Origin: Oscillospiraceae bacterium
GTDB taxonomy: Bacteria > Bacillota > Clostridia > UBA1212
Assembly: GCA_015069195.1 (NCBI GenBank)
Contig: SVJA01000014.1
Location: 1-53,781, forward strand
DNA: 53,781 nucleotides
Direction: 5' to 3'
This document shows, piece by piece, positions 17,711 through 29,557 of the stretch. Position 1 is the first letter of the stretch. The number at the start of each line of letters is the position of its first letter. The notes beneath the pieces were generated by a model that saw only the letters and a list, made by a program, of their open reading frames with translations, did no database searches and was not told the origin of the DNA. The position numbers were made by a program, and so were the translations under genes.

Positions 17711-17871
17711 GCCAAATTAACTTAATATGTGTGAAAAGAGGGTATAAATTTTTTTGCTTAAAAACTGCATAGCATTTTTAAATCATGGGTACATTTTTAG
17801 AGTTTGATAAAAAAGCAAATTCCAAGTATGTACTTGTGGTTTATACCCATTTCATATTAAGTTAGTTTGGC
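17711..17871. repeat. 161-bp hairpin-forming element with 19-bp terminal inverted repeats
   Basis: The ends GCCAAATTAACTTAATATG (17711-17729) and its inverse ending in TTTGGC at 17871 match at 18 of 19 positions. A second inner pair, GGGTATAAA (17740-17748) with TTTATACCC (17840-17848), extends it, and CAAGTATGTACTTG (17823-17836) is a perfect inner palindrome. This could be a small non-autonomous transposon (MITE) or a structured RNA. No clear target duplication is visible. The rest of the 17521-17944 gap is AT-rich with nothing I recognise. Confidence 0.65.
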
Positions 17872-17893
17872 GACTATCGGGGTTTGCGTTTTT

Positions 17894-17922
17894 TGTGCGC
17901 TTGCTTTGGTAGGCGCACTTTT
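17894..17922 (+). terminator. Leader terminator-like hairpin upstream of the LRR/dockerin gene
   Basis: GTGCGC and GCGCAC pair around about 12 bases, followed by T6. It stands only ~8 bases before the AAAGGAGGGG ribosome site of the next gene, so it could be an attenuator. Otherwise it is the 3' end of a short upstream transcript. Confidence 0.6.
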
Positions 17923-17944
17923 TTATTTAAAGGAGGGGATTATA

Positions 17945-19801
17945 TTGAAAACCCAAAAGAATTTGATTAAAAAGTATGTGGCAATGTTTGTTGCGGTTAT
18001 CTTACTTTTTAATGTCGCTGTCGGCGATTTTTCCGTAATTGGATATGCCGAGAAAATTGATGATTCTCAGATAACTGAGAGTATATTACCCGGTTGGATA
18101 TGGTATCCGGCGCGTGACGGTTACTGCAATTGGTCAGGTTTAGCTCCTGTTGATTCGGCGGAGTATACTACGTTTAATGTCCTTAGCTTTGACGGATACT
18201 GTTATCCCGGTCCGAATGCCGGCTCTTTGGTAGGTTCATTGGGTATGATTGATGCTGATGCCAATAAATTTGTCAGGGTTCGTTACAGAACTTCTGAAAC
18301 CGGCGGAACAGGACAGATTCTTGCAAACGGCGGTGCTTTTCAGGAAACTGTTTTTGCTTGGAACGGTGACGGAGAATGGCATGATATTATAGTTGATTTA
18401 TCCGGATACGCTAATTGGTATGGAGAGATAGATTGGTTCAGAATTGACTATATGGACAATCTTGCGTGGGGCAGTATCGATATCGAATACGTAGCGTTTT
18501 TTGAAACTGCTATGGATGCGTATGAGTGGACAGAAGATATGAATGTCGAGGAAGAGGATAATTTTGTTGTTCACGAAGGTAATTGGATCTGGAATTGTGC
18601 AGAGCATAGCTGGTGTTATGAAAACAGTCTGGATTGCGAAGTATCATCGTCAGGGCATTATGTGACTTTTTCCAAAACAGGCGTCGATCCTTATGTTTAT
18701 CCGTGCGAAGATTTTCCGGGAGAATTGTCTGAAACGGTTCTCGGAGCGATAAATGCAGACACACATAAATATTTCCTTATGAATTACCGTATAACATCTG
18801 CGGATCCCGGTGCTTACGGCACTATTGTGGCAAACAGCGGTAGATTTGAATTTGATATGCAGGGATACGTTCAGGATGGTATGTGGCATACGGTTATTGT
18901 TGATTTAAGCCCTGTTTCCGCGTGGAAAGGTATTGTGGATTGGGTTAGATTTGACTTATTTAATGACAATATCTCTGATGCATCGATAGATCTTGCTTAT
19001 GTCGGATTTTTCGAGTCGGAGCAGGATGCCGAAGATTGGGCAGAGCAGAATGCTGTAAATGAAGAGGAAACAGAGGATGGTTTCATATATACAACCGAAT
19101 CGGATGAAGTTACCATTATCGGTTATTTCGGAACTGAAACAATGGTTAAGATCCCGAGCAAAATAGACGGTATGACTGTAAAACATATCGGAAAAGATGC
19201 TTTTGCAAATTGCAGCGATTTAATCAGCGTAGTAACTCCGACAAGCGTAACAAGTATTGGTGCTTCTGCTTTTGTTGAGTGCAATGCTTTTACAGATATT
19301 TATTTCTTGGGCAGTGAAGCAGAGTGGAATGAAATTACTGTTTCGCCTGATGGTAATGAACTTTTGAGTGAAATTTCAGTACACTTTGATTGCAGTATTG
19401 CACTTGACGGCGAATCTTCTCTTAAAATTGATACCGACAAAGGTTTTGTGACCGGTGCGGTTATCGGTACAACTGTGTCGGACATCATAGGTCAGTTTGC
19501 ATCTTCGTATGAAGTCGGAGCTGCCGATGCAGAGGGTAATACTCTTGAAGCTGATGCAGTTATCGGTACAGGTTGCAAAGTTCAGCAAGTTATAGACGGT
19601 GTTGTTTTTGAGGAACTCACAACTGTCATTACCGGTGACACCGACGGAGATGGTGCAGTTACTGTTGCTGATGCACAGATTGGTTATAGTCATCTGTTGG
19701 GCATTGATATTGTCAGTGGTGCGTATGCAGAAGCCGCGAAGGCAAACGGCGGCAACACAATGTCAATTCTTGATGTTATGGCAATACTTAATATGATTTA
19801 A
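17945..19801 (+). CDS. Secreted multidomain protein: two CBM-like repeats, BspA-type LRR, dockerin-like end
   Basis: A 618-residue exported protein. I start at TTG 17945 behind AAAGGAGGGG; it gives a signal peptide (KKYVAMFVAVILLFNVAV) to ~37. Two homologous ~145-residue β-sandwich-like modules follow (~45-190 and ~195-345); both end in the pattern IxWxRxDxxxxxxxxxIDxxYVxFFE, as in EIDWFRIDYMDN and IVDWVRFDLFND. Next comes one LRR_5/BspA-like repeat unit (~360-440, IGKDAFANCSDL, IGASAFVECNAF). Then the shared VIGTGCKVQ domain and an intact dockerin-like pair, GDTDGDGAVTVADAQ and MSILDVMAILNMI, finish the protein. No catalytic domain is seen, so it is probably an adhesive or glycan-binding surface or scaffold component. 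Confidence 0.85.
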   Translation: MKTQKNLIKKYVAMFVAVILLFNVAVGDFSVIGYAEKIDDSQITESILPGWIWYPARDGYCNWSGLAPVDSAEYTTFNVLSFDGYCYPGPNAGSLVGSLGMIDADANKFVRVRYRTSETGGTGQILANGGAFQETVFAWNGDGEWHDIIVDLSGYANWYGEIDWFRIDYMDNLAWGSIDIEYVAFFETAMDAYEWTEDMNVEEEDNFVVHEGNWIWNCAEHSWCYENSLDCEVSSSGHYVTFSKTGVDPYVYPCEDFPGELSETVLGAINADTHKYFLMNYRITSADPGAYGTIVANSGRFEFDMQGYVQDGMWHTVIVDLSPVSAWKGIVDWVRFDLFNDNISDASIDLAYVGFFESEQDAEDWAEQNAVNEEETEDGFIYTTESDEVTIIGYFGTETMVKIPSKIDGMTVKHIGKDAFANCSDLISVVTPTSVTSIGASAFVECNAFTDIYFLGSEAEWNEITVSPDGNELLSEISVHFDCSIALDGESSLKIDTDKGFVTGAVIGTTVSDIIGQFASSYEVGAADAEGNTLEADAVIGTGCKVQQVIDGVVFEELTTVITGDTDGDGAVTVADAQIGYSHLLGIDIVSGAYAEAAKANGGNTMSILDVMAILNMI

Positions 19802-19868: not shown

Positions 19869-19920
19869 TGTCAAGAAAAAAAGCTTGACAAGCATACATT
19901 CCTGTTGTAATATGTCAAGG
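19869..19920 (+). promoter_or_regulatory. Sigma-A promoter of the ylxM-ffh operon, embedded in inverted repeats
   Basis: TTGACA (19885-19890), 17-base spacer, TAATAT (19908-19913). The -35 lies in CTTGACA, which pairs with TGTCAAG both upstream (19869-19875) and downstream (19914-19920). This could mark an operator, though the repeats are short. Confidence 0.75.
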
Positions 19921-19965
19921 CAATTTGCTTTACAGCTGTTTTGCGGAGAGGAGTGCCTTGTAAAA

Positions 19966-20319
19966 ATGGAGTCATTTGAGATGATAATGCTTATAGATTT
20001 TTACGGACAGCTTCTTACCGAAAATCAGCTTGCGTGCCTAGATATGTACTATAACGATGACATGAGTTATGCAGAGATTGCTGATGAGCTTGATATAAGT
20101 CGTCAGGGTGTTTTCGATTTCGTAAAGAGAGGTCGTATGGCGCTTGAGGAGTATGAGGAAAAGCTCGGTTTGGTGAAGCGTTTTATCGAAACAAAAGAGC
20201 AGATTGCGGCGGTTCAGAGTGATTTGAAAAAAATTGACGGTTCGCGTCTTTCATCAGAGGACAGTGAATTACTTCATAACATAACGGAAACTTTGGACGG
20301 CATTTCATCAGGTTTGTAA
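19966..20319 (+). CDS. ylxM: YlxM/p13-family helix-turn-helix protein, SRP-associated
   Basis: A 117-residue protein with a sigma-70 region 4-like HTH: LTENQLACLDMYYNDDMSYAEIADELDISRQGVFDFVKR (~15-53). The C-terminal half is helical. The family sits directly upstream of ffh in Firmicutes and is thought to modulate SRP assembly or expression. I start at ATG 19966, where the conserved family N-terminus begins; a longer frame would run through the promoter. The nearest ribosome site (GAGGAG, 19948-19953) is twelve bases away. ffh follows after 27 bases. Confidence 0.92.
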   Translation: MESFEMIMLIDFYGQLLTENQLACLDMYYNDDMSYAEIADELDISRQGVFDFVKRGRMALEEYEEKLGLVKRFIETKEQIAAVQSDLKKIDGSRLSSEDSELLHNITETLDGISSGL

Positions 20320-20346
20320 AGAGTTATTTTAAGGAAACGGTGTTTT

Positions 20347-21678
20347 ATGGTATTTGGCAGTTTAGCAGAAAAGCTTCAGGCTTCTATGAAGCGTTTCAGA
20401 GGTAAAACAAGAGTTACCGAAAAAGATATAAAAGAGTTTATGCGAGAGGTTCGCCTTGCACTTTTGGAAGCAGACGTAAACTATAAGGTCGTAAAGGACT
20501 TTATTGCGGCTGTATCGGAAAAGGCTGTCGGACAGTCGGTTATGGAAGGTCTTAATCCCGGTCAGCAGATAGTAAAGATCGTAAACGACGAGCTTACTGT
20601 TTTGCTCGGCAGCAGTGAGGCAAAATTAAATCTCGGAAACGTTCCCCCGAATGTTATTATGATGGTCGGACTTCAGGGTGCCGGTAAGACTACCGCTTCG
20701 GGAAAACTTGCTTTGAAACTTAAAAAAGAAGGTAAGAATCCGTTGCTCGTTGCGTGTGACATATACAGACCTGCTGCTATAAAGCAGTTAGAGGTTTTAG
20801 GAGGTCAGATAGCCGTTCCTGTATATTCCGCTCCTGCAGGCACGTCTGCCGTAGATATTGCAAATGCGGCTGTTAAACAGGCTGTAAGAGGATTAAATGA
20901 AGTTGTTATCATAGATACTGCCGGACGTCTTGAGATAAACGAAGAACTTATGGGCGAGCTTGAGGATATCAAGAACTCCGTAAAGCCTTCCGAAATTCTT
21001 TTGGTAGTAGACTCTATGACAGGTCAGAATGCTGCAAATGTTGCAAAATCTTTTGATGAGCGACTTGATATAACAGGTGTCATTCTTTCAAAACTTGACA
21101 GTGACACAAGAGGCGGTGCGGCGCTTTCCGTACGAGCTATGACCGGCAAGCCGATAAAGTTTGCTTCTGTCGGTGAGAAGATGAATGAGTTTGAAACATT
21201 CCATCCTGACAGAATGGCTGGCAGAATCCTCGGAATGGGCGATGTGCTTTCACTTATTGAGCAGGCAGAGGCTTTGATCGATGAGAAAAAGGCGGCGGAG
21301 CTTGAAAAGAAGATGCGAGAGGAAACTTTCACTTTGGATGACTTCCTTGACCAGCTTCAGCAGATAAAGAAAATGGGCGGTGTTACAAAGCTTCTCGGAA
21401 TGATTCCGGGTGTTGCCGGCCAGATAAAAGAAGAGGACATCGACGAGCGCAGACTCGTGATAACCGAGGCGATTATCCGTTCGATGACGATAAAAGAGAG
21501 AAACAATCCGAATATCCTTAATGCGAGCCGCAGAAAGCGTATTGCTGCAGGTAGCGGAACTTCCGTACAGGAAGTAAACATTCTTATGAAGCAGTTCGAT
21601 CAGATGAAGCAAATGATGAAGATGATGAACGGCAAAGGTATGGGCAAAAAGGGTTTCAAAAAAAGATTCCCGTTTTGA
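20347..21678 (+). CDS. ffh: Signal recognition particle GTPase Ffh
   Basis: A 443-residue protein that binds 4.5S/scRNA and signal sequences and targets ribosomes to the membrane with FtsY. N domain ~1-85; G domain with G1 GLQGAGKTTASGKLA (~107-121), the DIYRPAAIKQL insertion, G3 DTAGRL and G4 SKLDSD; the Met-rich M domain (~300-443) ends in DQMKQMMKMMNGKGMGKKGF. The length is normal. It is the second gene of ylxM-ffh-rpsP-khpA-rimM. Confidence 0.98.
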   Translation: MVFGSLAEKLQASMKRFRGKTRVTEKDIKEFMREVRLALLEADVNYKVVKDFIAAVSEKAVGQSVMEGLNPGQQIVKIVNDELTVLLGSSEAKLNLGNVPPNVIMMVGLQGAGKTTASGKLALKLKKEGKNPLLVACDIYRPAAIKQLEVLGGQIAVPVYSAPAGTSAVDIANAAVKQAVRGLNEVVIIDTAGRLEINEELMGELEDIKNSVKPSEILLVVDSMTGQNAANVAKSFDERLDITGVILSKLDSDTRGGAALSVRAMTGKPIKFASVGEKMNEFETFHPDRMAGRILGMGDVLSLIEQAEALIDEKKAAELEKKMREETFTLDDFLDQLQQIKKMGGVTKLLGMIPGVAGQIKEEDIDERRLVITEAIIRSMTIKERNNPNILNASRRKRIAAGSGTSVQEVNILMKQFDQMKQMMKMMNGKGMGKKGFKKRFPF

Positions 21679-21712
21679 TATAAATATTTAATTTTTCGGA
21701 GGTGACTTCAAA

Positions 21713-21955
21713 ATGGTAAAGATCAGACTTAGAAGACTCGGTGCTAAAAAAGCTCCTTTCTACAGAGTAGTTGTTGCAGAATCAAAGTATGCAAGAGACG
21801 GAAGATTTGTTGAGGAAATCGGTACTTACAACCCCCTTACAGATCCCGCTGAGATTAAAATCGATCTCGAAAGAGCAGACTACTGGATTAAGAACGGTGC
21901 ACAGCCGACTGATACAGTTAAAGCTTTGCTTAACAAGGCAAAAGCACAGGCTTAA
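21713..21955 (+). CDS. rpsP: 30S ribosomal protein S16
   Basis: An 80-residue protein with the full S16 pattern: [20 protein letters not shown], the [18 protein letters not shown] segment (~24-41) and the PTDTVKALL end. GGAGGTG precedes the start. It follows ffh by 34 bases. Confidence 0.98.
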
Positions 21956-21971
21956 TTATGAAAGAACGGAG

Positions 21972-22020
21972 CTTTTGCGTGCAAATTCAAGTGATTTACA
22001 CGCAGAAGTGTTCCTTTTTT
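21972..22020 (+). terminator. Hairpin with T tract between rpsP and khpA
   Basis: CTTTTGCGTG (21972-21981) pairs with CACGCAGAAG (21999-22008) over ten positions including one G·U, and T6 follows at 22015-22020. As the operon continues beyond it, it probably causes partial termination, lowering khpA-rimM-trmD relative to rpsP. Confidence 0.75.
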
Positions 22021-22056
22021 CAAATTGAAAGAAAGCGAATTTATGAGGTTTAGAAT

Positions 22057-22284
22057 ATGAAAGAACTTCTTGAACTTATAGTTAAATCACTTGTTGACGA
22101 TCCGGATTCTGTTGTTATTACAATGACAGAGTCTGAAAAGGGTATAAACCTTGCTGTTTCCGTTGCAAGTGAAGACGTAGGCAGAATAATAGGCAAAGAA
22201 GGCCGCATTGCAAAGTCAATCAGAACTGTTATCAGAGCTGCTTCACGCAATGTAGACAAGCCTGTTTTCGTTGATATTGTCTGA
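22057..22284 (+). CDS. khpA: KH-domain RNA-binding protein KhpA
   Basis: A 75-residue single type II KH domain with the GxxG-type loop RIIGKEGRIAKSIRTVIRAA (~47-66). The rpsP-khpA-rimM-trmD order is standard for Firmicutes. The KhpA-KhpB pair binds RNA and influences cell-length control; KhpB is not encoded here. Confidence 0.95.
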   Translation: MKELLELIVKSLVDDPDSVVITMTESEKGINLAVSVASEDVGRIIGKEGRIAKSIRTVIRAASRNVDKPVFVDIV

Positions 22285-22298
22285 GGAGGAGCATAGTT

Positions 22299-22823
22299 TT
22301 GCTGGAGATTCTCACTATCGGCGAAATTGTTAATGTACACGGGGTCAAGGGCGCACTTAAGGTGCAGCCTTTGACTGATAACCCGTTGCGCTTTAAAAAG
22401 TTAAAAAGCATTAAAATAACCGTCAAGGGCAAGAAAACAGACTATGAGATTACCAATGTTCAATTCTCGGGAAATACCGTTATTTTGGCATTAAAGGGGA
22501 TTGATACGAGGGATCAGGCTGAGTTTATGCGCGGCGGTATCATCGAAATACCTCGCAGTGAGGCGATTGAACTTCCCGAAGACCACTATTTTATCGGTGA
22601 TCTTATCGGTTGCGATGTATATGAAACAGACGGAAATCTTCTCGGAAAGATAAATGACGTGCTTCAGACAGGCAGCAACGATGTTTACAGCGTTAAGGAC
22701 ACAGAGGACAGGACTATACTCATTCCTGCCATAGAAGGCGTTGTAAAGAATGTTGATGTTGCAGGCGGAAAAGTTACGGTCGAGCTTCTTCCGGGTTTAA
22801 AGGAAATATATTATGAGAATTGA
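22299..22823 (+). CDS. rimM: 16S rRNA processing/ribosome maturation factor RimM
   Basis: A 174-residue protein: N-terminal β-barrel (TIGEIVNVHGVKGALKVQPLTD, ~5-26) and C-terminal PRC-type barrel (HYFIGDLIGCDVYETDGNLLGKI near ~97; NDVYSVKD; IPAIEGVVKNVDV). It binds S19 and helps mature the 30S head. It starts with TTG at 22299 behind GAGGAGGA and overlaps the trmD fusion gene by 11 bases. Confidence 0.95.
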   Translation: MLEILTIGEIVNVHGVKGALKVQPLTDNPLRFKKLKSIKITVKGKKTDYEITNVQFSGNTVILALKGIDTRDQAEFMRGGIIEIPRSEAIELPEDHYFIGDLIGCDVYETDGNLLGKINDVLQTGSNDVYSVKDTEDRTILIPAIEGVVKNVDVAGGKVTVELLPGLKEIYYEN

Positions 22824-24690
22824 TTTTCTTACGCTTTTTCCTGAGATGTTCAAAGAGACTCTCGGGGAGAGTATTATTGCCAGAGGTGCAAGCAAGGGAT
22901 TGCTTGACCTCAATTTTTTTCAGATAAGAGATTACACAGAGGACAAGCAGAAAAAAGTTGACGACTATCCGTACGGCGGAGGCCCCGGACTTGTTATGTC
23001 GTATCAACCTATTGTTTCTGCGTATCACGCTGCGGTAGAGTCTGCCGGCGGCGAGAAACCTCATGTCATATATATGACGCCTCAGGGCAAAGTGCACAAT
23101 CAAAAGATTGCAAAGCGCCTGAGCAAAATGCCTTATATAATGATTATTTGCGGTCACTACGAGGGCATTGACGAAAGAATTATAGAAGATATCGTTGATG
23201 AGGAAATTTCTCTCGGAGATTTTGTTCTTACAGGCGGTGAAATCCCTGCAATGGCGCTTGCTGACAGCGTCGGAAGGCTTGTTCCGGGTGTACTTGCTTC
23301 CGTAGAGGCGACAGAATCCGAGTCACATTCCGAAGGTTTGCTCGAATATCCTCAGTACACACGCCCCGAAGTTATTGCAGGAAAAAAAGTTCCCGATGTA
23401 TTGCTAGGCGGAAACCACGCAGATATTGAAAAGTGGCGTTTGGAACAATCCGAAGATCGTACTAAAAGAAAACGTCCCGATATGTACAGCGAGTACAAGG
23501 GCAGTATCTATGATCCGAACAGAGAAATATATCTCGATAACAGTGCTACGACAAAACAATCAAAAGCAGTTACGGAAGAGATGTGCCGCATATACCGAGA
23601 TTTCTACGGAAACCCTTCATCGCTTCACAGACTCGGTTTTGAAGCTGAAAAAGAATTAAAAAGATGTCGCGGTGTTCTTGCTGATATTATTGCGGCTGAT
23701 GAAAGTGAAATTTACTTTACATCGGGCGGTAGTGAGTCAAACAACTGGGCTTTGAGAGGATATCTTGAAAAGAATCCCCGCCAGGGAAAACATATAATTA
23801 TTTCTGCGATAGAGCATCCGTCAGTATCGGAAACTGCAAATGCTCTCAAGAACGTAGGTTTTGAGGTCTCTTTGGTCCCCGTTTCGCAAAGCGGAGTAGT
23901 TTTACTTTCTGAATTAGAAAAGCTTATAAGGCCTGATACGGCACTTATTTCGGTAATGCATGTAAATAGCGAGACCGGTGCAATCCAACCGATTTCGGAG
24001 ATATCGAAGCTCCGTTACAAACTTGCTCCGGATGCTGTGCTTCATGTGGATGCGGTGCAGAGTTTCGGGAAGATTGCTATTGACGTAAACAAAATGGGTA
24101 TCGACTTGCTTTCGGTATCTGCACACAAAATTCATGGTCCGCGCGGTGTCGGAATGCTTTATATTCGCAAAGGTGTGCGTGTAGCGCCTCTCATATATGG
24201 CGGCGGTCAGGAAAAGGGCTTACGATCCGGTACTGAAAATCTTGCAGGCATTGCAGGTTTTGTATATGCGGCAAAAGAAATGACAGAAAATATCGATGTA
24301 AACTACGATCATGTTTCATCGCTTAATAAAAAGCTTTTTGATATGCTGACGGAGCGTTTCGGTGATAAAATCGTAATAACAACAGACCGTGAAGTGTCAT
24401 CGCCGTATGTTTTGAATGTTGCATTCCCGAAGTTCCGTGCAGAAGTTATTTTACACAGTTTGGAGTCGAAAAATGTCTATGTGTCCGTGGGTTCTGCTTG
24501 CTCTTCACACAAAAAGAACAGAAGCACAGTGCTTACCGCTATGGGTTACCCGAACAATGTAATAGACGGTGCTATCCGTATAAGTTTTTCTGCGCAGAAT
24601 ACCGAGGATGATGTAGAAAAAGCTTTTGATGCGATAAACAGAACGATCCGAGAACTGAAAAGTGCCGTATACGCAGGCAAGCGAAAATAA
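22813..24690 (+). CDS. trmD: TrmD-cysteine desulfurase fusion (tRNA m1G37 methyltransferase + NifS/IscS-like)
   Basis: A single 625-codon frame joins two complete enzymes. Residues 1-~230 are TrmD, the SAM-dependent tRNA m1G37 methyltransferase: DDYPYGGGPGLVMSYQP, CGHYEGIDERI (112-122), the trefoil-knot loop SLGDFVLTGGE (133-143) and GLLEYPQYTRPEV. TrmD's usual end (KRPDMYSEYKG) is reached, then REIYLDNSATT (237-247) begins a class V PLP cysteine desulfurase with His335 (EHPSV), Asp413 (HVDAVQSFGK), PLP Lys439 (SAHKIHGPRG) and loop Cys563 (GSACSSHKKNRS). No stop, start codon or ribosome site is visible at the junction. thiI follows after 15 bases, so the desulfurase half is likely ThiI's sulfur donor for s4U8 (inference). 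Confidence 0.93.
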   Translation: MRIDFLTLFPEMFKETLGESIIARGASKGLLDLNFFQIRDYTEDKQKKVDDYPYGGGPGLVMSYQPIVSAYHAAVESAGGEKPHVIYMTPQGKVHNQKIAKRLSKMPYIMIICGHYEGIDERIIEDIVDEEISLGDFVLTGGEIPAMALADSVGRLVPGVLASVEATESESHSEGLLEYPQYTRPEVIAGKKVPDVLLGGNHADIEKWRLEQSEDRTKRKRPDMYSEYKGSIYDPNREIYLDNSATTKQSKAVTEEMCRIYRDFYGNPSSLHRLGFEAEKELKRCRGVLADIIAADESEIYFTSGGSESNNWALRGYLEKNPRQGKHIIISAIEHPSVSETANALKNVGFEVSLVPVSQSGVVLLSELEKLIRPDTALISVMHVNSETGAIQPISEISKLRYKLAPDAVLHVDAVQSFGKIAIDVNKMGIDLLSVSAHKIHGPRGVGMLYIRKGVRVAPLIYGGGQEKGLRSGTENLAGIAGFVYAAKEMTENIDVNYDHVSSLNKKLFDMLTERFGDKIVITTDREVSSPYVLNVAFPKFRAEVILHSLESKNVYVSVGSACSSHKKNRSTVLTAMGYPNNVIDGAIRISFSAQNTEDDVEKAFDAINRTIRELKSAVYAGKRK

Positions 24691-24705: not shown

Positions 24706-25893
24706 ATGAAAAAATTGATTTTGGTCAGAATAGGCGAGATTGCTCTCAAAGGTCTCAACAGAACAAATTTTGAGCATATGCTTGCAAAAAATATGAAAGA
24801 GGCCGTGAAAAAATACGGTGCCTGCCGCATCGGTTGGTCGCAGTCGCGTTTTTATGTAGAACCCGAAAACGACGAATTTGACTTTGACGGAGCGGTAGAA
24901 GCTCTTTGCAGAGTATTCGGTATCGTGTCGGTCAGTCCTGCTTACGTCGTAGAATCTGAATTTGACGCTATAAAAGACGAAGCCATAAGACTTTGCGGAG
25001 CAAAACTTTCAACTCGCGAATACGAAAGAAAGCAGTCTGTGAAGTTCAAGGTCGAAACAAAGCGTGTCCTCAAATCTTTCCCGATGTCTTCTCATGAAGT
25101 TTCTGCGGAAATAGGCGGAATGCTTTTGGACGAGTACGAAAAACTTACTGTTGATGTAAATAATCCGGACTTCATAGTATATGCCGAAATCAGAGAGAGA
25201 ACCTATGTATATGTGGACATAATCAAAGGTCAGGGCGGTATGCCTGTCGGTTGTAACGGCAGAGGAATGTTGCTTCTATCCGGCGGTATCGACAGCCCCG
25301 TGGCAGGATATATGATAGCAAAGCGCGGCGTAAGGATGTATGCGGTTCACTTTCACAGTTATCCCTACACAAGCGAACGTGCAAAGGAAAAGGTAATAGA
25401 GCTTGCCAGAATTTGCTCAAAGTATTGTAACGACATAAAGCTCTTCATAGTGCCTTATACGGAAACTCAGCTTGCAATCCACGAAAATTGCCGTGAAGAC
25501 TTAGGTACGGTAATAATGCGCCGCTCAATGATGCGAATAGCAGAGCATTTTGCTAGAGAGTGCGGATGCCAGGCACTTGTTACCGGTGAGAGTATAGGTC
25601 AGGTTGCAAGCCAGACGATGCAGGCGATGTACTGTACGAACGATGCTGCAAATATGCCTGTGTTCAGACCTCTTATAGGTATGGACAAGGTAGAGGTTGT
25701 CGAAATCGCAAATCGCATCGGTACTTTTGAAACAAGTATACAGCCTTACGAGGATTGCTGTACGGTATTTACTGCAAAGCACCCCAAGACAAAACCGACT
25801 CTCGCAGAAGTGCTTGCCGAGGAAGAAAAGTACGACTACAAAGAACTCGAGAAGAGAGCGATTGAGGGTGTCGAAGTAATCTGGGCGAAGTGA
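24706..25893 (+). CDS. thiI: tRNA 4-thiouridine synthase ThiI, rhodanese-less
   Basis: A 395-residue protein that adenylates tRNA U8 for sulfuration, and in many bacteria also serves thiazole synthesis. The N-terminal ferredoxin-like part (LVRIGEIALKGLNR) and THUMP domain (~60-165) bind tRNA. The PP-loop ATPase motif is LLLSGGIDSPVAGYMIAKRG (~189-208), followed by TGESIGQVASQT. It lacks the C-terminal rhodanese domain of E. coli ThiI, as in most Firmicutes, so sulfur must come straight from a cysteine desulfurase, here encoded by the preceding fusion gene. Confidence 0.95.
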   Translation: MKKLILVRIGEIALKGLNRTNFEHMLAKNMKEAVKKYGACRIGWSQSRFYVEPENDEFDFDGAVEALCRVFGIVSVSPAYVVESEFDAIKDEAIRLCGAKLSTREYERKQSVKFKVETKRVLKSFPMSSHEVSAEIGGMLLDEYEKLTVDVNNPDFIVYAEIRERTYVYVDIIKGQGGMPVGCNGRGMLLLSGGIDSPVAGYMIAKRGVRMYAVHFHSYPYTSERAKEKVIELARICSKYCNDIKLFIVPYTETQLAIHENCREDLGTVIMRRSMMRIAEHFARECGCQALVTGESIGQVASQTMQAMYCTNDAANMPVFRPLIGMDKVEVVEIANRIGTFETSIQPYEDCCTVFTAKHPKTKPTLAEVLAEEEKYDYKELEKRAIEGVEVIWAK

Positions 25894-26391: not shown

Positions 26392-26482
26392 CTTGGATGT
26401 TTTGCACTAATTTTTTTAAAAGCCCTTTGCATAACTGCCGGAAATTTGATATCGGACCGATTTTAAGTTATGCATCTGGGAG

Positions 26483-26510
26483 TTGACACATTACCGTTAT
26501 CTGTTATAAT
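26483..26510 (+). promoter_or_regulatory. Sigma-A promoter of the zinc-regulator/transporter operon
   Basis: TTGACA (26483-26488), 16-base spacer, TATAAT (26505-26510). It lies about 70 bases before the regulator start and immediately before the palindromic operator. Confidence 0.88.
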
Positions 26511-26511
26511 G

Positions 26512-26532
26512 ATTTGCGAATTGTTCGCAAAT
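26512..26532 (+). promoter_or_regulatory. Zur/Fur-type operator (9-3-9 palindrome) over the transcription start
   Basis: ATTTGCGAA, TTG, TTCGCAAAT: perfect nine-base arms one base after the -10 hexamer, covering the expected +1. The position is ideal for repression, and the palindrome size suits a Fur-family dimer. The adjacent regulator gene implies autoregulation. Confidence 0.8.
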
Positions 26533-26580
26533 TGCCTGAGCTATTTGCAATTCATTCATTATCACAAGAGGTTTTCTTTT

Positions 26581-26988
26581 ATGCGAGAATATATGACGGA
26601 GCAGCGTAAAGTGTTGCTTGCATTTTTAAAAGAGAATACGGACATACAGTTTACTGTTGAAGAAATTTGCGAAGGCGTTAACCAAAGCGGTACTCACGAT
26701 ATAAGTTTAAGTGCCGTTTACAGAAATATTGCGAAGCTTGCAGAGGGCGGTCACGTGAGACGTTTTATGCGTGACGGAAGCAGGACTGCGGTGTATCAGT
26801 ATGTGCACTGCCATGATTGTGAGAAACATCTTCATATGAAGTGTGTTAAGTGCAGTAAGATTTTGCATATGGACGATGAGGCGACTTCGGAGATGCTTGT
26901 TGCGGCTCTGAAAAAGAGCAATTTCAAGATAGACGAAAGAAAAACGATGTTGTACGGTGTGTGCGAAAGTTGCAGTGAGGATATATAG
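26581..26988 (+). CDS. zur: Fur-family transcriptional regulator, probably Zur
   Basis: A 135-residue Fur-family repressor. The winged-helix N-terminus includes TVEEICEGVNQSGTHDISLSAVYRNIAKLAEGGHVRRF with the family's AVYRNIxKL recognition helix. The C-terminal metal domain has HCHDCEKHLHMKCVKCSK with the structural CxxC pair, and CESCSED with the second pair. I start at ATG 26581 because AGAGG stands at 26567-26571 and the promoter-operator lies inside any longer frame. Zinc specificity is inferred from the znuA-znuC-znuB genes directly downstream, which share the operator-controlled promoter. The ATG at 26593 is a possible alternative start. Confidence 0.88.
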   Translation: MREYMTEQRKVLLAFLKENTDIQFTVEEICEGVNQSGTHDISLSAVYRNIAKLAEGGHVRRFMRDGSRTAVYQYVHCHDCEKHLHMKCVKCSKILHMDDEATSEMLVAALKKSNFKIDERKTMLYGVCESCSEDI

Positions 26989-27975
26989 ATGATAAAAGTG
27001 TTGAAAGATAGAGTGAAAAAATTTACAGCACTTGCATTTATGGTTGTTATCTTTATGTCCGTCGCGACAGGTTGCAGTACAGGAAAAGATAATGATGGCA
27101 CAATTAATATTCTTTGCACGATTTTTCCGGCGTATGATTGGGTTCGTGAGATTACTGCAGGTGCCTCAAATGTTGAGGTTGAACTTTTGGTTGATAGCGG
27201 TGCGGATATGCACAGTTATCAGGCGAGCGCATCAGATCTTGTAAAGATTGCATCGTGTGATGTTTTTGTGTATGTGGGCGGTGTTTCTGACGGTTGGGTA
27301 GAGGATGCCTTGGAAAGTGCGCCGAACGATAAAAGAACTGTTCTGAATCTTATGGAGCTTTTGCCTGAGGAAAGAAAGATTTGTGCGAGCAGTGATCACG
27401 ACCACGAAGACGGATACGTTCATACGGAAAAAGATGCTTATGACGAACATCTGTGGCTTTCGATAAATAGTGCAAAGATACTTTGTGAAAAGATTTCCGA
27501 GGAAATATCAAAAGTTGATTCGGTAAATTCGGAAAAATATACCGCGAATACAAATGCTTATTGTAAAGCTCTTGAAGAACTTGACGAAGAGTACAAAAAA
27601 GTGTGTGATAACGCTCAAAATAAGACTCTCGTATTCGGCGGAAGATTTCCTTTTGCATATCTTTTAAATGATTACGGTCTTAAACATTATGCGGCTTTTG
27701 ATGGTTGTTCTGCAGAGAGTGAAGCAAGTTTTGATACGGTTGTTTTCCTCGCAGGAAAGGTTGACGAGCTTGGTGCTCCGGCAGTTTTGTCTGTAAAAGA
27801 TGATTCGGAAGCCCTTGCAAAGACTATCATAGAAAACACAAAGTTAAAGAATCAGCAGATAATTACGCTTGATTCGATACAGGCTGTGACGCGCAAGGAC
27901 ATTGACGGCGGCGCCGCGTATTTAAAGATAATGAAAGCAAATCTTGATGCAATAAAAGTCGCACTTGATTATTGA
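26989..27975 (+). CDS. znuA: Zinc-type ABC transporter substrate-binding lipoprotein
   Basis: A 328-residue cluster A-I metal-binding protein anchored by a lipobox (SVATGC, Cys29). First ligand His sits in GADMHSYQAS; the second in DEHLWLSINSA. The acidic/His loop SSDHDHEDGYVHTEKD is a short version of the zinc-delivery loop of ZnuA proteins. The third His of the family motif is replaced by Arg (GGRFPFAYLLNDYG); the final ligand region is present as FDGCSAESEASFDTV. It starts right at the regulator stop. By family it captures Zn2+ (or Mn2+) outside the membrane for the ZnuBC permease; the Zur context favours zinc. Confidence 0.9.
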   Translation: MIKVLKDRVKKFTALAFMVVIFMSVATGCSTGKDNDGTINILCTIFPAYDWVREITAGASNVEVELLVDSGADMHSYQASASDLVKIASCDVFVYVGGVSDGWVEDALESAPNDKRTVLNLMELLPEERKICASSDHDHEDGYVHTEKDAYDEHLWLSINSAKILCEKISEEISKVDSVNSEKYTANTNAYCKALEELDEEYKKVCDNAQNKTLVFGGRFPFAYLLNDYGLKHYAAFDGCSAESEASFDTVVFLAGKVDELGAPAVLSVKDDSEALAKTIIENTKLKNQQIITLDSIQAVTRKDIDGGAAYLKIMKANLDAIKVALDY

Positions 27976-27990
27976 TATACGGAGGTTTTA

Positions 27991-28704
27991 ATGGCACTTC
28001 TGACATTAAAAGACGTTACACTCGGATATGACGGAATGATTGTAACGGAAAATGTGAACTTTTCAATAGAACATGGTGACTATCTGTGTATAGTCGGTGA
28101 GAACGGTTCGGGAAAAAGTACACTTATGAAAACTATATTAAAACTTGTGAATCCTCTTCGTGGCGAGGTCTCTACGGGTGACGGACTTAAATCAAAAGAG
28201 ATCGGTTATCTTCCTCAGCAGACGGTTGTGCAGAGGGATTTTCCTGCATCGGTTAATGAAATTGTTTTGTCCGGTTGCCTTAATCGCACAGGCCTGAGAC
28301 CTTTCTATACAAAAGCTGAGAAGAAACTTGCCGAAGAGAATATGCGGAAAATGGATATTCTTGAGCTGAAAGACAGATGTTACAGAGATTTGTCCGGCGG
28401 ACAGCAGCAGAGGGTTTTGCTTGCAAGGGCTCTTTGTGCGGCAAAGAAAATGATACTTCTTGATGAGCCTGTTTCGGGACTTGATCCGAAAGTTGCGCGT
28501 GAGATGTACGAACTTATATACAGACTTAATAAAGAAGACGGAATTACGGTTGTAATGATTTCGCACGATATAAATGAAGCTGTAAGATATGCTGATAAGA
28601 TCCTTCATATCGGAAGTCAAAGACCTTTGTTTTTCGGTGATAAATCGGATTATGTGAAAAGCGGAATTGCTGATGCTTTTATTCATACAAAGGGGGCAGA
28701 GTGA
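27991..28704 (+). CDS. znuC: Zinc ABC transporter ATP-binding protein
   Basis: A 237-residue ABC ATPase: Walker A GENGSGKSTL (~36-45), Q loop YLPQQTVVQRDFP, signature DLSGGQQQRVLLARAL (~133-148), Walker B MILLDEPVSGLD and switch His (ISHDI). The length and YLPQ segment fit the metal-type ZnuC/MntB/TroB group. It is encoded 15 bases after znuA, with GGAGG before the ATG, and its stop lies next to the permease start. Confidence 0.93.
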   Translation: MALLTLKDVTLGYDGMIVTENVNFSIEHGDYLCIVGENGSGKSTLMKTILKLVNPLRGEVSTGDGLKSKEIGYLPQQTVVQRDFPASVNEIVLSGCLNRTGLRPFYTKAEKKLAEENMRKMDILELKDRCYRDLSGGQQQRVLLARALCAAKKMILLDEPVSGLDPKVAREMYELIYRLNKEDGITVVMISHDINEAVRYADKILHIGSQRPLFFGDKSDYVKSGIADAFIHTKGAE

Positions 28705-28705
28705 T

Positions 28706-29557
28706 ATGGCAGAGATTTTTGATAAATTGTATCTGTATTTTCAGTTCCCGTTTGTAAGATATGCTTTGATTGTTGCGGTACTTGTGTCGCTTTGTGCTTC
28801 AATGCTGGGCGTTATCCTTGTGCTTAAAAGGTTCTCTTTTATCGGTGACGGACTTTCACATGTGGCATTCGGCGCAATGGCGATAGCGGCAGTTGCAGGT
28901 CTCACAAACAATATGCTTATTGTGATTCCGATAACCGTAATCTGTGCGGTATTGATACTTTGTGCAGGACAGAATTCAAAGATAAAAGGCGATGCTTCGA
29001 TAGCTCTTATATCGGTGAGTTCACTTGCGATAGGTTATCTTTTGTATAATGTGTTTTCGACGTCGTCAAATGTAAGCGGTGATGTGTGCAGTACGCTTTT
29101 CGGTGCTTCGTCGATACTCACGTTAAAACAATCCGATATGTGGATAAGCGTAATAATGTCCGTGATTGTAATGGGACTTTTTGTATTCTTTTACAACAAG
29201 ATATTCAGCGTGACGTTTGATGAAAATTTTGCCTGTGCGACAGGAACATCTGCAAAACTTTACAATCTGATAGTGGCGGTTATTACAGCGGTTATTATAG
29301 TGCTTGCAATGAATCTTGTAGGCTCGCTTTTAATATCTGCGCTTATAATATTTCCGGCGCTTTCTGCGATGAGAGTTTTCAGTACATTCAAATCCGTAAC
29401 AATATGTGCTGTTGTGAATTCAGTTGTTTGCACAAGCGTGGGAATGATAATTTCAATTCTTGCGGAGACTCCCGTAGGTGCTACGATAGTTGCGGTAGAC
29501 GCGGCTTTGTTTATAATTTACACGGTTGTCGGAATGGCGGCAGGTCGCAGAAAATAA
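28706..29557 (+). CDS. znuB: Zinc ABC transporter permease
   Basis: A 283-residue membrane protein with about eight to nine hydrophobic helices. ABC-3 family segments are clear: LGVILVLKRFSFIGDGLSHVAFG (~30-52), the cytoplasmic EAA-like stretch around NKIFSVTFDENFACATG, and NLVGSLLISALIIFPALSAM. I start at ATG 28706, two bases after the ATPase stop, behind AGGGGG; an upstream in-frame ATG inside znuC has no ribosome site. It forms the channel for ZnuA-delivered metal. Confidence 0.93.
   Translation: MAEIFDKLYLYFQFPFVRYALIVAVLVSLCASMLGVILVLKRFSFIGDGLSHVAFGAMAIAAVAGLTNNMLIVIPITVICAVLILCAGQNSKIKGDASIALISVSSLAIGYLLYNVFSTSSNVSGDVCSTLFGASSILTLKQSDMWISVIMSVIVMGLFVFFYNKIFSVTFDENFACATGTSAKLYNLIVAVITAVIIVLAMNLVGSLLISALIIFPALSAMRVFSTFKSVTICAVVNSVVCTSVGMIISILAETPVGATIVAVDAALFIIYTVVGMAAGRRK

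Follow-up and report, generated by a model that had tools for sequence, protein, structure and literature searches.

A conserved in-frame fusion of the tRNA methyltransferase TrmD with a class I cysteine desulfurase in a clostridial order

We describe a gene that covalently joins the tRNA m1G37 methyltransferase TrmD to a class I cysteine desulfurase, with thiI as the next gene downstream. It is found in the window, i.e., the whole stretch of 53,781 nucleotides from an Oscillospiraceae bacterium that was analysed, and in most genomes of the order to which this organism belongs. The best explanation, to which we give a probability of about 0.8, is that the product is a bifunctional enzyme of single origin, in which TrmD would make m1G37 and a desulfurase of the type seen in NifZ-ThiI pairs would feed ThiI, with the benefit lying in the 1:1 co-production of the two. 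The observed fusion, its single origin, its conservation, the intact active sites and the gene order are the parts of this explanation on which the rest is built; from them we infer the activities, the partners, the assembly and the benefit.

Gene architecture and domain content

The fusion and the gene that follows it are laid out in the window as follows:

22813..24690, + strand: trmD-cysteine desulfurase fusion gene, a single open frame from ATG to TAA, 625 codons
22813..23487, + strand: TrmD half, residues 1-225, SPOUT tRNA m1G37 methyltransferase (PF01746; NCBIfam TrmD equivalog above cut-off)
23488..23520, + strand: linker, residues 226-236 (SEYKGSIYDPN)
23521..24687, + strand: class I (IscS/NifS-like) cysteine desulfurase half, residues 237-625 (PF00266; NCBIfam PRK02948 above cut-off)
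24706..25893, + strand: thiI, 395 aa, with ferredoxin-like, THUMP and ThiI domains by domain search

Both domain profiles are matched over nearly their full length and far above cut-off: the Pfam tRNA_m1G_MT profile (positions 6-195 of 195) covers residues 27-222 of the fusion with an E-value of 1.4e-56, and Aminotran_5 (positions 1-370 of 371) covers residues 239-603 with an E-value of 4e-79. Among the NCBIfam models, the TrmD equivalog NF000648 (1-221 of 221) scores 296.8 bits on residues 1-225 against a cut-off of 220, TIGR00088 scores 290 bits on the TrmD half against a cut-off of 195, and the IscS-subfamily desulfurase model PRK02948/NF002806 scores 315 bits on residues 239-617 against a cut-off of 304. 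The NCBIfam equivalog cut-offs for NifS, IscS and DndA are not reached by the desulfurase half; hence, we do not give it any of these names. Sequence comparisons with the PDB likewise matched 27 TrmD sequences to the first half (best E-value 6e-70) and class I desulfurases to the second. These results bear out the first-pass annotation, which had read the open frame as an in-frame fusion of two enzymes with thiI as the next gene: thiI indeed lies directly downstream across a gap of 15 bases, and Lys439 and Cys563, there named for the desulfurase, are correctly numbered and invariant in 24 full-length fusions. The fusion is confirmed as a covalent joining of two intact enzymes that is real rather than accidental.

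Distribution of the fusion

The fusion is carried by 27 of the 31 genomes of the order, which belong to the families f1, f4, f5 and f6; 24 of these copies are full-length and three (in G006, G019 and G029) are cut by contig ends, with all of them spanning the junction. Two genomes of family f3 (G010 and G011) have adjacent trmD and desulfurase genes with a 4-bp overlap, and in G009 of family f2 trmD and the desulfurase-thiI pair lie on different contigs; neither TrmD nor thiI was found in G001, which is 69% complete. Thus, a fusion confined to this strain alone, the outcome that the first-pass annotation had named as telling against its claim, is rejected. As the domain boundary is identical in 27 independently assembled genomes, chance, sequencing error and misassembly are excluded; the reading in which such an error deleted a stop codon, in favour of which nothing was found, is refuted by the same agreement and retains virtually no credence.

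No fusion was found outside the order in 391 genomes of the class (some 375 other genomes) or in 398 genomes of the phylum (397 other genomes), in scans with a threshold reached by fusions only, whose samples partly overlap and which a very divergent fusion could escape. For 280 further class genomes, each of the matches listed is either a desulfurase or a TrmD encoded separately, and the TrmD relatives recovered in a scan of named genomes are all unfused, the nearest of them being the basis for taking the class as Clostridia-like. A 689-aa frame at the desulfurase of G226 was considered as a second fusion and rejected, the DNA having no TrmD and encoding an ordinary 389-aa desulfurase before thiI. 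In Lachnospiraceae bacterium AC2028 (L023:3986-5233), a 415-aa frame encodes a TrmD that is prolonged at its C-terminus by about 165 residues; the added part matches no Pfam or NCBIfam model, and the protein is possibly another TrmD fusion.

Origin of the fusion

A maximum-likelihood tree of TrmD, the desulfurase and ThiI taken together unites the 24 fusions in one clade (support 99/99), to which family f3 is sister (100/100), while G009 and the class outgroups branch outside both; a tree of TrmD only, with named outgroups, agrees on the fused clade (93/96). As far as these phylogenies go, the fusion is of single origin, one gain being enough, and the order of states is from separate through overlapping to fused, traversed once. 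In the outgroups the desulfurase gene adjoins thiI and not trmD; the pairing of desulfurase and thiI thus came first, and TrmD was added to it later.

The junction itself is consistent with this order. In family f3, trmD ends and the desulfurase gene begins within the same four bases, ATGA; the TrmD C-terminus reads ...YEAYIKGENMDK and the desulfurase N-terminus MREIYFDNSATT. The junction region of the window reads ...YSEYKGSIYDPNREIYLDNSATT and from KG onwards is equal in length to that of f3, i.e., KGENMDK followed by MREIYFD in f3 versus KGSIYDPNREIYLD in the window. Such an equal length is expected if a change of frame at the ATGA overlap joined the genes. We propose that trmD and the desulfurase-thiI pair would first have become neighbours with a 4-bp overlap, and that a small insertion or deletion at this overlap would then have brought both frames together. 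The linker, poorly conserved overall, comprises about a dozen residues in families f1 and f5 and more in f6, whereas f4 has none.

Active sites, selection and predicted structure

The key catalytic positions of the two halves map to the window as follows:

24127..24129, + strand: Lys439, PLP Schiff-base lysine (SAHK), invariant in 24 fusions
24499..24501, + strand: Cys563, persulfide cysteine (GSACSS), invariant in 24 fusions
23320..23322, + strand: Glu170, aligned with Asp169, the catalytic aspartate of TrmD from E. coli and H. influenzae, invariant in 24 fusions

Across the 24 full-length fusions, His335, Asp413 and Gln416 of the desulfurase half are invariant along with Lys439 and Cys563, as are Gly114, Glu117, Arg155 and Glu170 of the TrmD half, in which the SAM-knot and catalytic motifs are also present (PQG, CGHYEG, GD[FY]VLTGGE and the equivalents of R154 and D169). 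Asp169 is the general base of gammaproteobacterial TrmD. A Glu at this site as a sign of lost activity is rejected, as unfused clostridial TrmDs share the Glu (in the contexts ESH or ESF). In the TrmD half of genus g3 of family f1 (L006-L010) we noted that PQG reads PKG or PRG and that YTRP reads YTKP, these substitutions falling in SAM/tRNA motifs that are otherwise conserved.

For both halves, dN/dS lies between 0.04 and 0.13 in those pairs where it could be computed, with dS exceeding 1 in most pairs; the closest pair (G026/G028), the sole one free of dS saturation, gives values of 0.065 and 0.099. Judged by these ratios, purifying selection is acting on both halves. The idea of a degenerate half held in frame by chance is rejected given the invariant catalytic residues and the low dN/dS.

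The 24 full-length fusions share no internal start, with a ribosome-binding site before it, from which a free desulfurase could be made: 13 of them have no ATG, GTG or TTG in the 40 codons preceding the desulfurase half, and G026 has one internal ATG with GGAGG. Hence, the desulfurase is most likely produced solely as part of the fusion chain; proteolysis or weak internal starts could yield a free form.

AlphaFold models the fusion as two well-folded domains (mean pLDDT 82, pTM 0.63), with low confidence in TrmD residues 165-189 and in the Cys loop; at this pTM the relative placement of the domains is not firm. Residues 237-615 of the model align with the NifS-like structure 1ecx_B with a Z-score of 48.4 and an rmsd of 1.5 Å over 364 residues (VIA-align). 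The structural matches listed are desulfurases, this domain filling the list, and the TrmD assignment rests on sequence.

Genomic neighbourhood and sulfur supply

Upstream, the fusion lies in the usual trmD neighbourhood:

22299..22823, + strand: rimM, overlapping the start of the fusion by 11 bp
19885..22284, + strand: ylxM, ffh, rpsP (S16) and khpA, read from their translations, with gene order kept in relatives

The names ylxM, ffh, rpsP and khpA are given by sequence similarity. In every genome of the order whose contig continues, thiI directly follows the fusion. Within family f1, the locus of genera g2 and g3 has lost its rimM, S16 and ffh neighbours and adjoins what appears by eye to be a glucose-6-phosphate isomerase gene, with the fusion and thiI still together. 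Two other loci of the window were noted. Positions 26470-29557 likely constitute a Zur-regulated operon for zinc uptake: the gene of a regulator of the Fur family comes first, and after it those of a zinc-binding protein resembling ZnuA, an ABC ATPase and a membrane protein. Positions 17867-19801 encode a protein of 644 aa that looks secreted; it has a leucine-rich repeat of the BspA type and, by eye, a dockerin-like end (GDTDGDGAVTVADAQIGYSHLLGI).

No rhodanese domain was found in the ThiI of the window by domain search. In B. subtilis, the gene for NifZ directly precedes a thiI that is likewise without this domain, and NifZ and ThiI together suffice for s4U formation (PMC5372745). The desulfurase-thiI pair also occurs in relatives that have no fusion, which agrees with the earlier view of the desulfurase half as the usual partner of ThiI. 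As the pair predates the fusion and matches NifZ-ThiI, the likely role of the desulfurase half is to supply sulfur to ThiI for s4U8, the grounds for this assignment being gene order and the case of B. subtilis.

Of the 27 genomes that carry the fusion, 15 have a further class I desulfurase, which lies next to IscU in those examined and, in at least two, together with mnmA. The other 12 show none, an absence limited by the incompleteness of genomes; 11 of these, several of which are 90-97% complete, are also without IscU, and MnmA is present. The window genome belongs to the latter group: going by its sequence, the fused half is apparently its sole class I desulfurase. Besides MnmA, this genome encodes a class V enzyme of the EF2568 type and a short pair resembling SufC and SufB. 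In this pair (L121:531-2166, C23 of the window genome), a SufC-like ATPase stands beside a 306-aa SufB/D-like protein that scores below the SufB, SufD and SmsB cut-offs; the two apparently constitute a minimal SUF-type pair in a genome without IscU. The genomes with no second class I desulfurase speak for the fused enzyme being a general sulfur hub that would serve MnmA, and perhaps Fe-S assembly, in addition to ThiI, with the link to TrmD being for dosage only. However, the 15 genomes that do have a separate class I desulfurase still keep the fusion and its adjacency to thiI, and the EF2568-type enzyme might supply sulfur in the window genome; we regard a general hub as possible, though not the account that we favour.

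Proposed function

In the bifunctional enzyme that we favour, the N-terminal half, the only TrmD of the cell as far as its sequence tells, would make m1G37. TrmD is essential, and the methylation of G37 keeps the reading frame; as the TrmD of the fusion is the sole one in the window genome (2.0 Mb, 96% complete), this activity is ascribed to it. In the C-terminal half, PLP on Lys439 would move the sulfur of cysteine onto Cys563, and the resulting persulfide would pass to ThiI, encoded next, for the formation of s4U8. Where a genome has no other class I desulfurase, the fused half may feed MnmA beyond ThiI, and would then probably serve s2U34 as well. Both TrmD and the class I desulfurases are normally homodimers; hence, an assembly of 2:2 or higher order is expected. 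The benefit would most probably be that an essential tRNA enzyme and the sulfur donor are always made in a 1:1 ratio, and that the donor travels on a protein that binds tRNA; in this, the fusion would replace an earlier coupling via overlapping translation. Fixed 1:1 synthesis is the effect that is safest to infer, and a plainer reading than channelling or coupling.

It is also conceivable that the fusion is a neutral accident, in which the genes became joined through an indel at their overlap and have stayed so only because both halves work and reversal is rare. While the overlap seen in f3 makes the fusion a one-step change and the linker is poorly conserved, the fusion has been kept in all 27 examined descendants of the event, in four families and at 54-64% protein identity, it survived the relocation of the locus in f1, and a new stop plus a restart could easily split the gene. 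We consider such a neutral accident rather unlikely.

Readings in which the two halves cooperate more closely on the tRNA, such as the channelling of tRNA or the coupling of modification levels that the first-pass annotation had put forward, appear weaker. One is a covalent complex in which TrmD would bring the sulfur donor and ThiI (and MnmA, if there is no other class I donor) to tRNA, with m1G37 and thiolation being co-controlled; this we hold to be distinctly doubtful. The other is tRNA channelling, in which the TrmD half would hold the tRNA as ThiI, docked on the desulfurase, thiolates U8, such that m1G37 and s4U8 arise in one encounter. TrmD modifies tRNAs for Leu, Pro and Arg-CCG that carry G36-G37, and ThiI modifies tRNAs with U8, so that some tRNAs are substrates for both reactions; this, the covalent linkage of the desulfurase to a tRNA-binding enzyme and the constant position of thiI as the next gene are compatible with channelling. 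Nevertheless, it is improbable, for only a minority of U8 tRNAs are TrmD substrates, the model (pTM 0.63) does not place the domains with confidence, and a linker that is variable and missing in f4 gives no evident fixed geometry.

Significance and comparison with known systems

We found no published description of a TrmD-desulfurase pairing in the open-access literature, and no link between the m1G37 and sulfur-donor pathways has been proposed in the open-access literature found. Nature offers few better indications that two proteins work together than a conserved gene fusion, and here the essential m1G37 methyltransferase is joined to the putative sulfur donor of tRNA thiolation. Its history is readable within one order, so the intermediates can be compared and the coupling of two tRNA modification pathways becomes testable. 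TrmD is also a drug target, which lends practical relevance to a lineage whose TrmD is built differently. As both parent enzymes are homodimers, the way in which the fusion assembles deserves attention in its own right.

The closest parallel on the TrmD side is the TrmD-Tm1570 fusion of Calditerrivibrio nitroreducens and others, for which separate, adjacent, overlapping and fused gene arrangements have all been reported (PMC11187310). As in that case, TrmD is the N-terminal half of a two-enzyme chain whose partner acts on tRNA, and a similar series of arrangements is seen; however, TrmD is joined there to another SPOUT methyltransferase (PF09936; PMC11187310), and in our case to a cysteine desulfurase that depends on PLP and belongs to the sulfur pathway. 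The C-terminal half of our fusion has no match to PF09936 in Pfam, the domain there being PF00266.

On the sulfur side, the system resembles B. subtilis NifZ-ThiI in that the gene of a class I desulfurase directly precedes a thiI with no rhodanese domain, dedicated transfer being presumed, and differs from it in that NifZ is a free protein while the desulfurase here is the C-terminal half of a TrmD fusion (PMC5372745). Desulfurases fused to other functional domains are known with rhodanese (CD-Rhd of Pseudorhodoferax, which is bifunctional and dimeric) and MOSC (plant ABA3) domains (PMC8931425), and the present protein is comparable to these; unlike TrmD, which as far as known stands outside the sulfur relay, their partners lie within it. 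Hence, in contrast to these precedents, the fusion described here joins two different tRNA modifications.
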